This document shows positions 18,713 to 20,557 of a stretch of 64,000 bases of DNA, piece after piece (within the stretch, counting starts at the first letter, position 1; each line of letters begins with the position of its first letter). The DNA is from Christiangramia sp. OXR-203 (GTDB lineage: Bacteria; Bacteroidota; Bacteroidia; Flavobacteriales; Flavobacteriaceae), in NCBI RefSeq assembly GCF_034372165.1, contig NZ_CP139698.1, positions 3,224,001 through 3,288,000 on the forward strand, written 5' to 3'. The translations under genes were made by a program, and so were the position numbers. The notes below the pieces were generated by a model. It was not told the origin of the DNA and searched no databases. It was given only the letters and a program-made list of their open reading frames with translations.

Positions 18713-18761
18713 TTATTGATAATCGATAATTTATTTTATGTTTGTTATCGTAAAACGATAA
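18713..18761 (+). promoter_or_regulatory. Promoter with two operator-like palindromes before the DUF2975/XRE array
   Basis: The promoter has TTG at 18716-18718 and TATGTTTG at 18737-18744, 18 bases apart. A perfect inverted repeat TTATCG-N5-CGATAA occupies 18745-18761, right after the -7 box and over the expected transcription start. A second copy with one mismatch, TTATTG-N5-CGATAA, lies at 18713-18729 over the -33 element. The two have the same 6-5-6 geometry and start 32 bases apart, close to three helical turns. This suits co-operative repression by a small dimeric HTH protein, and the XRE regulator at the end of the array is the natural candidate (inferred). Confidence 0.7.
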
Positions 18762-18769
18762 TTATATCA

Positions 18770-19266
18770 ATGAAACTTGTAATTTGGTTACGGAATATTT
18801 TCAGTACAGCGTATTATTTGACCATCATTATATTAATGGTAGTCTTAGGATTAATGATTTTTGCTATAGTTGCCGACTCTGAAATGGTAAGGGAATTTGT
18901 AGACAGATCACCAAATCTTATTGTTAAATCAAAATCAGCCTTATTTGCTGCATTATCTTTTACTTTCATTTCTGGAGCATTCTGGATTTATATACTTAGA
19001 CTACTTAGAAATCTAACCTGGAATCTTTCTATCAGGGATTTATTTTCAGATATCAAATATCCACTTTCAAGCTATCAGGACAGTTAATAATTATTGTGAC
19101 TGTTCTAGATTACATTACGAAATTTATTTTTGAAGCATTATTCAATGAAAAATTAAAAAGTTTCGATCTCTTCGATTTTATCCTTGCCATTGGAATTGGA
19201 TTATTCCTAATTCTATTATCGCAAGTTTTTCAAAAAGCTAAGAATCTGAAAGATGAAATGAATTAA
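18770..19266 (+). pseudogene. DUF2975 membrane protein, copy 1, frameshifted
   Basis: The first half runs from ATG at 18770 to a stop at 19085-19087 (105 residues, two hydrophobic helices near 9-30 and 55-76). The second half continues in the +2 frame through FKLSGQLIIIVTVLDYITK to a stop at 19264-19266 and ends KAKNLKDEMN. Together the halves match the full-length neighbours, which have AGRLIVLASILDAIV and KAKSFKEENKLTV at the same places. Adding one T to the TTT run near 19065-19067 rejoins the frames as KYPLFKLSGQLI. A second lost A at about 19258 leaves an out-of-frame remnant of the ELTV tail. The copy is therefore probably dead, unless there is a sequencing error or programmed frameshifting. 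Confidence 0.8.
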
Positions 19267-19284
19267 CCGTTTATAAATTATTTA

Positions 19285-19821
19285 ATGAAGCCCATATCCC
19301 TCCTCAAATACTCTTTAAATGTTTTCCTAATATCACTCCTGGCAATAAACTTATTAAAGCTATTAATTGTATTATTTTATTTTTTCAATCCAGACCATGA
19401 TTTTTTTGGAGGCTTTTCAATTCTTCCAGATGAGATAAACAATCAGCCAATTACCAAAAATTATAACTGGACAACTACACTTTTTGGTATTGACATTATC
19501 AGTTCTATCTTATTTATTTATTTGATTTTAAAGTTCAAAAATCTCGTTTCTCTTTTGAATACTACCGATCTCTTTAATTTTCAGCAACAAAAGCTTTTTA
19601 AAAACATAGGTATTTTGTTAATAATTTATGCTGGAATAAAATGGATATCTCTTTTTATCTATAAAAATTTTCTTGAATCCTCTCCAAGAACTGTGACTTA
19701 CGATTTTGATGGCACCGGTTCTTTCTGGTTTGTTTTGATTCTTGGACTATTATTTACTTACATCTCCTACGCTTTCAAGGAAGCACGATTTCACAGGGAA
19801 GAAAATGAATTAACCGTTTAA
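19285..19821 (+). CDS. DUF2975 family membrane protein, copy 2
   Basis: The 178-residue protein has four predicted membrane helices (about 10-34, 65-85, 107-127, 147-165). A polar loop after helix 1 contains DHDFFGGFSILPDEIN. It ends FHREENELTV; the EENELTV tail is a hallmark of DUF2975 proteins that neighbour small XRE regulators. Function is unknown: family members occur in many Firmicutes and Bacteroidota next to YozG-like HTH proteins. The gene lies 18 bases after the broken copy 1 and 11 bases before copy 3, so it is part of one transcript. Confidence 0.82.
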   Translation: MKPISLLKYSLNVFLISLLAINLLKLLIVLFYFFNPDHDFFGGFSILPDEINNQPITKNYNWTTTLFGIDIISSILFIYLILKFKNLVSLLNTTDLFNFQQQKLFKNIGILLIIYAGIKWISLFIYKNFLESSPRTVTYDFDGTGSFWFVLILGLLFTYISYAFKEARFHREENELTV

Positions 19822-19832
19822 CATAAAACTAT

Positions 19833-20348
19833 ATGAAGCCACCAATTTTACTTAAAACTATTTTAGATATATGCTTCTTCATCCTATTGATTAGTTTAAT
19901 TGCTTCGATGGGTATTATACTATCTCATCTATTTTTAACATCAGAGGGTATGCCCATATATTTAAATGACCATATTATTGGCGAAATAACAATGCCGAAA
20001 ATAATTTTACTAATACTAGCAATTTTCCAAGCTGGTATTTTTTTATTTTCTGTATATACTTTAAGAAAAGTAGTACATAACTTTTTTAAAAAAAGATTAT
20101 TTACCTCTATACAAATAACGGGATTAAATTTAGCTGGAAGATTAATTGTTTTGGCTAGTATTTTAGATGCTATTGTGAGTTTTTCATCGAATCTTATTCT
20201 GGAATCAAATCTGAAACTTCGTTTTGGAATCGAATCTACTTTTGGTTCATTTTGGCTACAATTAGCTATGGGACTTTTTCTAATTCTGTTATCCAAATCT
20301 TTTGAAAAAGCCAAGAGCTTTAAGGAAGAAAACAAACTAACCGTTTAA
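19833..20348 (+). CDS. DUF2975 family membrane protein, copy 3
   Basis: The 171-residue protein has four hydrophobic helices (about 11-34, 55-76, 98-120, 140-158). After helix 2 comes LRKVVHNFFKKRLFTSIQITGLNLAGRLIVLASILD, the most conserved part of the family. After helix 4 comes LLSKSFEKAKSFKEENKLTV at the C-terminus. The XRE regulator starts two bases after its stop, the usual DUF2975-HTH arrangement. Divergence from copy 2 is large outside the tail, so the duplication is not recent. A membrane-sensor or anti-regulator role is only a guess. Confidence 0.85.
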   Translation: MKPPILLKTILDICFFILLISLIASMGIILSHLFLTSEGMPIYLNDHIIGEITMPKIILLILAIFQAGIFLFSVYTLRKVVHNFFKKRLFTSIQITGLNLAGRLIVLASILDAIVSFSSNLILESNLKLRFGIESTFGSFWLQLAMGLFLILLSKSFEKAKSFKEENKLTV

Positions 20349-20350
20349 GT

Positions 20351-20557
20351 ATGGCCATTATCATAAATCTCGATCAGATTCTGGAAGAAAGAGGCATGAA
20401 AAGTAATGAACTGGCTGAAATGGTTGGGATTACCACCGCAAACCTGTCTATCCTTAAAACCGGGAAAGCCAAAGCTGTTCGGTTTTCCACACTTGAAGCT
20501 ATTTGCCAGGCTCTGGATTGCCAACCCGGGGATATTCTGGAATATTTGCCAGATTAG
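20351..20557 (+). CDS. XRE/Cro-CI type small transcriptional regulator (YozG-like)
   Basis: The 68-residue protein is a single helix-turn-helix domain: NLDQILEERGMKSNELAEMVGITTANLSILKTGKAKAVRFSTLEAICQALDCQPGDILEYLPD. The recognition helix is about TTANLSILKTGKAKAV (28-43), and the ending CQPGDILEY is typical of YozG-like proteins. It is translationally close-coupled to DUF2975 copy 3 (two-base gap). It probably binds as a dimer to the TTATCG-N5-CGATAA palindromes at the array promoter and controls its own operon (inferred). Confidence 0.93.
   Translation: MAIIINLDQILEERGMKSNELAEMVGITTANLSILKTGKAKAVRFSTLEAICQALDCQPGDILEYLPD

Follow-up and report, generated by a model that had tools for sequence, protein, structure and literature searches.

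The window (the whole stretch of 64,000 nucleotides of Christiangramia sp. OXR-203 DNA analysed here) contains a group of genes for DUF2975 membrane proteins that ends with the gene of a 68-residue XRE regulator. The coordinates of these genes, together with those of the promoter and the putative operators in front of them, are collected in Table 1. The first gene of the group is broken, while both of the following DUF2975 genes and the XRE gene are intact, and relatives with an intact first gene are found in the genus. The C-terminal piece of the broken gene matches PF11188 with 20.9 bits, which is under the 27-bit cut-off, and its N-terminal piece has no PF11188 match. The ORF that follows the XRE gene is presumably an M61-type peptidase, and the divergent gene upstream of the group is taken here to be an antiporter-type subunit. 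An antiporter-type gene occurs near the locus in 17/20 cases in the genus, in 5/37 in the family (where flanks were short) and in 0/80 loci from wider contigs; the corresponding figures for an M61-type gene are 18/20, 6/37 and 4/80. Both neighbours were considered as partners of the system and rejected. Within the genus (loci L027-L046 together with positions 18770-20348 of the window) the DUF2975 genes vary in number from one to three and form five groups at 40% identity; the operator and the XRE gene are conserved between the species despite this varying slot.

Table 1. Features of the DUF2975-XRE locus, in window coordinates
Feature	Position	Strand	Basis
Operator 1, TTATTGATAATCGATAA	18713..18729	.	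spans -33 element; -33/-35 site recurs across phyla
-33 TTG, within left half of operator 1	18716..18718	+	sequence
-7 box TATGTTTG, consensus TAnnTTTG, adjoins operator 2	18737..18744	+	sequence
Operator 2, TTATCGTAAAACGATAA	18745..18761	.	spans inferred transcription start
Transcription start, inferred	18749	+	from flavobacterial -7 box position (PMC9723704, accessible text)
First DUF2975-type gene, broken, two frames	18770..19266 (18770-19087, then 19096-19266)	+	two relatives match in two frames
DUF2975 membrane protein, 178 aa, C-terminus REENELTV	19285..19821	+	PF11188 36.0 bits, cut-off 27
Tail codons REENELTV	19795..19818	+	conserved C-terminal tail
DUF2975 membrane protein, 171 aa, C-terminus KEENKLTV	19833..20348	+	PF11188 37.9 bits, cut-off 27
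Tail codons KEENKLTV	20322..20345	+	conserved C-terminal tail
XRE regulator, 68 aa, HTH_26, last gene of DUF2975 group	20351..20557	+	PF13443 89.8 bits, cut-off 22

The first-pass annotation had described two palindromes of 6-5-6 geometry in front of this group, 32 bp apart from start to start, and both are confirmed from the sequence. It had called the second a perfect TTATCG-N5-CGATAA, which it is, and the first a copy with one mismatch. That mismatch is present relative to the string given; however, the comparative consensus described below reads TTATYG in its left half, so the deviating base lies within the consensus and both operators are exact under TTATYG-N5-CRATAA. TTG near position -33 is an element of Bacteroidota sigma-A promoters. 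The TTG in operator 1 is separated by 18 nt from TATGTTTG, a full match to TAnnTTTG, and both sigma-A promoter features of Bacteroidota, the TAnnTTTG -7 box and the TTG near -33, are therefore found at this locus. The flavobacterial -7 box is placed at -12 to -5 in the accessible part of the relevant paper (PMC9723704), and with this placement transcription would start at about 18749, operator 1 would extend from about -36 to -20 and operator 2 from about -4 to +13. The promoter anatomy of 18713-18761 thus bears out the earlier proposal that one operator lies over the -33 element and the other over the start. The ATG of the first gene is at 18770. A scan with the sigma-70 consensus, which does not model Bacteroidota promoters, gave nothing at 18713-18761.

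Simple counts of the motif are not above chance. The window contains three matches with at most two mismatches to TTATCG-N5-CGATAA, against 3.64 expected, and the genome contains four places with at most one mismatch, against nine for the reversed pattern. TTATYG-N5-CRATAA is exact at three places in the 3.40 Mb genome (control, one); two of these are operators 1 and 2, and the third sits inside a 290-aa ORF. There are two further genomic sites with one mismatch, one of them inside an ORF. The other, TTATCGTATATTGATAA at C1:2041323-2041339 (L003), overlaps no listed ORF of at least 100 aa and is a possible second target of the regulator. Because the counts in window and genome do not exceed chance, the case must rest on comparison; at the level of sequence, what is unusual about the motif is its pairing and its conservation, not its frequency.

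We therefore compared DUF2975-XRE loci from other genomes. In the family Flavobacteriaceae the search started from the site and asked for two exact copies of TTATYG-N5-CRATAA with any gap of 8-22; the Bacillota loci and the other loci outside the family were found through the XRE protein. The exact pair occurs in 76 of 397 family genomes, and the reversed-pattern control in none among the matches listed; as the compared loci are related, these and the following counts are not independent. Among the matches listed there are 75 pair places, from 73 of the 76 genomes (G278 is counted twice, apparently because the ends of its contig overlap), and in all 75 the pair faces a homologue of the 68-aa XRE protein no more than 2.1 kb away. 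At 74 of them the pair lies 30-2084 bp upstream of the XRE match and is directed towards it. The 75th (G335, L154) was resolved by fetching the region and is upstream of the XRE gene as well, as are the pairs in G123 and G323 (L080, L081), two of the three genomes outside this listing. The distance between pair and XRE gene at the 74 places is 30 bp in one case, 458-641 bp in 41 and at least 849 bp in the remaining 32, where it falls into the ranges 849-1147, 1312-1666 and 1967-2084 bp. These distances step by about one DUF2975 gene, and the operons would therefore hold from none to about four such genes, an estimate from spacing for which gene content was checked in the genus only. The 30-bp case is L155 (G301), where the XRE gene follows the double operator so closely that no DUF2975 gene lies between them.

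In the genus, the XRE gene was found in 21 of 24 genomes and the exact pair in 17. The pair is absent from all three genomes that gave no XRE match (one of which is only 67% complete), and four genomes with an XRE match lack the exact pair. Across the whole family, 173 of these 397 genomes have an XRE gene (E <= 1e-10); as 76 genomes bear the exact pair, it is missing from the majority of those with an XRE gene.

Single sites have a wider distribution than the pair, and the widely distributed one is the site over the -33/-35 element. Outside the family, XRE matches were obtained in 79 genomes, and 39 of these contributed one Bacteroidota locus each (19 were fetched with the search and 20 were picked to span many families). 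Within 1500 bp upstream of the XRE gene, 24 of the 39 have an exact TTATYG-N5-CRATAA and five a copy with one mismatch. In dinucleotide shuffles the respective numbers are 0.1 and 1.05, and the reversed pattern gives 0 and 2. The remaining ten have no site with up to one mismatch within these 1500 bp. A wider contig scan provided 80 named loci, in each of which we recorded the best-matching site in the upstream sequence, to a maximum of 3000 bp; the background rate implies about 0.06 such sites per 3-kb locus. All 31 Bacillota loci of this set have a site upstream of the XRE gene (27 exact, four with one mismatch), as do 39 of the 45 Bacteroidota loci (34 exact, five with one mismatch) and the four loci from other phyla (one exact, three with one mismatch). 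The labels Bacillota, Gemmatimonadetes, Pirellulales, Roizmanbacteria and Magasanikbacteria are those of the database records, and metagenome bins among them may be mis-binned. Outside the family a locus usually has a single good site, which often lies a few bases ahead of a -7 or -10 box; an exact TAnnTTTG follows 5-9 nt after 31 of 75 single Bacteroidota sites. A second site at 31-33 bp is seen mainly in Flavobacteriaceae. The expectation of the first-pass annotation that the palindrome should recur upstream of related DUF2975-XRE loci thus holds within the genus, the family and the phylum, and between phyla. Judged by these alignments of sites and genes, TTATYG-N5-CRATAA accompanies the XRE gene across phyla, its left half often doubling as a -33/-35 element. 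The double arrangement is not essential by the same measure, since over half of the XRE-bearing family genomes are without the exact pair and most non-family loci have a single site.

A minority of loci lack the site. Among 234 XRE-bearing locus records, 17 have no site within 2300 bp upstream. For part of these, short flanks or distance are responsible: L175 has an exact site at -2728, and L001 is the locus of the window itself with a shortened flank. Eight loci (L134, L135, L143, L148, L153, L189, L193 and L207) have at least 2.6 kb of upstream sequence and no site with fewer than two mismatches in it. In L134 and L153 the region of the recognition helix differs and no DUF2975-sized ORF lies directly before the XRE gene; the differences fit a changed specificity but prove nothing.

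The spacing of the sites was analysed in a promoter set from which loci with less than 450 bp upstream had been dropped, the last 2300 bp being used and near-identical sequences collapsed (217 to 179). To assess spacing, we also removed those loci that had been retrieved with the operator pattern, which left 150 non-redundant loci fetched by protein. In these, 56 second sites with at most one mismatch were found 10-70 bp away, against 0.35 expected from the background rate, at offsets of 21 bp (5), 30-34 bp (45) and 43 bp (2), with four singles at 54-66 bp. When two mismatches are allowed there are 88 second sites against 4.56 expected, at 21 bp (22), 30-35 bp (47), 42-43 bp (3) and 52-56 bp (7); the other nine, at 17-19, 25, 58-59 or 66 bp, depart from the helical periodicity or lie at its margin. 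The main groups of offsets correspond to about two, three, four and five helical turns, and the vector strength at 10.5 bp is 0.83 for the stricter and 0.74 for the looser set. In 61 of 70 pairs an exact TAnnTTTG closes the spacer and abuts site 2. Among 30 Bacillota loci, 19 have a -10-like hexamer exactly 17 nt after the TTGNNN position of the operator, and nine have one at 38 nt, that is 17 + 21, or two turns further. These nine loci are of Clostridia type by eye, and at least L192 and L218 among them have a one-mismatch second site two turns downstream.

At the fifth base of the left half, T occurs in 53 of the 70 first sites found in pairs and in only 24 of the 70 second sites; it occurs there in 65 of 75 single Bacteroidota sites, and among 30 Bacillota sites in 23, while the mirror base on the right has the corresponding identity in 12 of 30. 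Such a preference in left halves that lie over -33/-35 is as expected if the TTG also serves the polymerase. In the genus of the window this shared role is weakened, because the left half of site 1 often reads TTATCG there. Taken together, the near-helical spacing and the overlap with the -33/-35 element and the start fit the suggestion, made at the outset, of a layout suited to co-operative repression.

The XRE protein itself is strongly conserved. The mean column identity among 32 homologues is 83%, and N31, S33, K36 and R44 are among the invariant residues. In its own genome the 68-aa protein has no second match at E <= 0.001. An AlphaFold2 model (pLDDT 82.1) consists of five helices, the third at 29-37, flanked on either side by short strands. 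Foldseek matched the model to 19 PDB chains at E <= 0.001, all of them HTH regulators. The predicted fold is of the Cro/CI-type HTH class, and the best PDB matches of the model are VanUg (3tyr), SaPI2 Stl and CylR2 (2xiu).

The DUF2975 proteins are much more variable, except at their C-terminal end. Of 86 ORFs between operator and XRE gene (84 from the wider contig loci and two from the window), 74 match PF11188 with E <= 0.01. Three ORFs of this set match Band_7. These are presumably the long ones of L194, L219 and L229, three Bacteroidales MAGs in which this operator and the XRE gene enclose another gene pair, encoding a protein of about 200 aa that ends in SYTI or SLII and another of 455-473 aa; the repressor may have changed its partner at these loci. 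Over 253 pairs from 23 loci, mean identity is about 18% for the bodies of the DUF2975 proteins, 77% for their XRE partners and 55% for the last eight DUF2975 residues. This tail reads KxEN[DE]LT[VI], and its eight columns hold seven of the ten most conserved of the protein. The motif is present in 75 of the 86 ORFs. Of 108 further loci examined, 105 have a long ORF that stops directly ahead of the XRE gene, and 94 of these carry the motif too; most of the 11 misses are close variants of the tail. Translation coupling to the XRE start was considered as the cause of the motif and rejected, since most first genes of two-gene operons carry the tail as well.

The AlphaFold2 model of the 171-aa DUF2975 protein is a four-helix bundle (pLDDT 89.5). 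The average charge per sequence is +1.85 for the N-terminus and +1.77 for the second loop, -1.31 and -0.88 for the other two loops, and -1.06 for the tail. With four helices, these loop charges place both ends of the protein inside, despite the net negative tail, and the tail should then face the cytoplasm, where the repressor is. The tail is a candidate docking site for the repressor, though a net negative tail could serve folding or turnover instead. The DUF2975 fold has no Foldseek match in the PDB at E <= 0.001. VIA-align gave Z values of up to 9.1, which are common for helical bundles, and no relative of known fold is claimed.

Comparison of these loci shows that site, promoter element and regulator gene travel together. 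On this basis 18713-18761 is, with good probability, the double operator of the 68-residue HTH_26 (YozG-like) XRE protein, by which it would repress its own DUF2975 (YoaS-like) operon. XRE dimers would bind each 17-bp site, and two dimers on one face of the DNA, three turns apart, would cover the -33 element and the start and so shut off the operon. The gene of the repressor would be included, and the result would be negative autoregulation, a self-limiting loop. The DUF2975 products would be four-helix membrane proteins with both ends inside, whose variable outer loops may sense something and whose conserved tail KxEN[DE]LT[VI] may hold or release the repressor, much as SdpI does with SdpR. 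An outside signal would then relieve repression without a phosphorelay. We put the chances at about even that the DUF2975 proteins perceive an external cue and retain or release the repressor by way of the tail.

Two other accounts of the locus, both improbable, deserve discussion. In one the DUF2975 protein is a membrane-acting toxin and the XRE protein an antitoxin that is also an autorepressor at the same operators. The two-part operon with the XRE gene last would suit such a system, and the DUF2975 tail could be an antitoxin-binding site. Pairs of Xre with a 'YoaS-like' membrane protein were listed by Makarova et al. 2009, with 32 occurrences. In the accessible text of that paper (PMC2701414) such pairs were then excluded, as none of the type II systems detected until then had a membrane component, and a reply to a reviewer adds that a system whose putative toxin is a membrane protein could be of a new kind. 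The genus locus, however, keeps its chromosomal neighbours, unlike the usual mobile toxin-antitoxin pair, and one to three DUF2975 genes per regulator within one genus are unlike one toxin with one antitoxin; we consider this account unlikely. Of similarly low probability is that the XRE protein binds as an activator, or represses at one site only, without co-operativity. Many non-family loci have a single good site, and in the 9/30 Bacillota loci with the hexamer at 38 nt the better site is shifted upstream by two turns from where the -35 element usually lies, a position that an activator could also occupy. Yet 19/30 Bacillota loci and the majority of Bacteroidota pairs have the site across the -35/-33 position, with site 2 over the start, and both placements would block the polymerase; furthermore, 79/88 second sites fall at 21, 30-35, 42-43 or 52-56 bp.

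It is very unlikely that another regulator binds the sites and that their link to the XRE gene is mere neighbourhood. Some XRE loci are indeed without a site, but the link extends from Flavobacteriaceae to Bacillota, while the two other neighbours examined are entirely or nearly absent from the 80 loci of the wider contig scan (antiporter-type 0/80, M61-type 4/80), and the genus genomes without an XRE match are also without the pair. That the palindromes arose by chance in AT-rich DNA, as the lack of enrichment in window and genome would allow, can practically be dismissed in view of their conservation, pairing and linkage to the XRE gene.

The preferred reading, a double operator at which the XRE protein represses its own operon, can be set beside several known systems. 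The DUF2975 and XRE proteins of the window belong to PF11188 and PF13443, respectively, and among the closest known systems are the YoaS/YozG pair and the HTH_26 regulators (VanUg, PDB 3tyr). We take YoaS to be a DUF2975 protein and YozG to be its partner in B. subtilis. The pair formed by DUF2975 and an XRE partner is found from Flavobacteria to Bacilli and Clostridia. A second likeness is to CylR1/CylR2 of Enterococcus faecalis: the XRE protein is predicted to be a small single-domain repressor of the CylR2 fold, its model superposing on chain B of 2xiu (a 65-residue chain) with Foldseek TM scores of 0.81/0.84 and E 2.8e-4. CylR2 is absent from the eight PDB sequences found by a sequence search with the XRE protein at E up to 0.1. 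It is encoded with a suspected membrane protein, CylR1, which is thought to relay a signal, possibly without a phosphorelay; CylR1 is predicted to have three helices, against four in the DUF2975 model, the two partners being compared by description (PMC3709268, accessible text). CylR2 acts on a divergent toxin operon, whereas the promoter that carries the sites described here belongs to the operon encoding the repressor itself. The anatomy of the locus also differs from the CylR-type layout, in which the site lies between divergent regulator and biosynthetic operons; the divergent neighbour here is the antiporter-type gene.

A third likeness is to SdpI/SdpR of Bacillus subtilis. SdpR is of the ArsR type, which is another fold family, and SdpI is, we assume, not a DUF2975 protein. 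As in the present case, a polytopic membrane protein and an autorepressor are encoded within one operon. On a signal, SdpI sequesters the autorepressor, according to the accessible portion of a review (PMC1626106), while sequestration by the DUF2975 proteins is only inferred. By analogy, the DUF2975-XRE loci would resemble SdpI/SdpR and CylR1/CylR2 in principle, without membership in either. In a Streptomyces antibiotic cluster, the DUF2975 gene cppC adjoins a helix-turn-helix gene, cppD (PMC7827011, accessible text), and a pair of this kind may also serve cluster regulation in actinobacteria.

The open-access literature has little on these proteins. For DUF2975 it yielded annotation only, subscription papers being mostly outside the search. 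No operator, promoter position or tail motif of YoaS/YozG was seen in the accessible texts, and none of them gave an operator for YozG, whose branch is called barely characterised. Six common operator strings were not found in the open-access literature either, and a description elsewhere is possible.

In a broader and more tentative reading, to which we give somewhat less than even weight, the loci would form a phylum-spanning family of membrane receptors and autorepressors, in which a near-invariant 68-aa repressor, with one operator set into the -35/-33 element, is joined to rapidly evolving four-helix sensors that retain just the short cytoplasmic tail as a repressor plug. The sensors would be swapped, multiplied (from none to about four per operon, by spacing) or broken, with operator and repressor untouched. 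An operator shared across phyla makes the nearly unstudied DUF2975-XRE family directly testable: the operator predicts where the regulator binds and which promoter it shuts, and the tail predicts the contact through which the membrane protein could switch it. The principle of the CylR1/CylR2 switch would thereby be carried far outside the setting of toxin operons.
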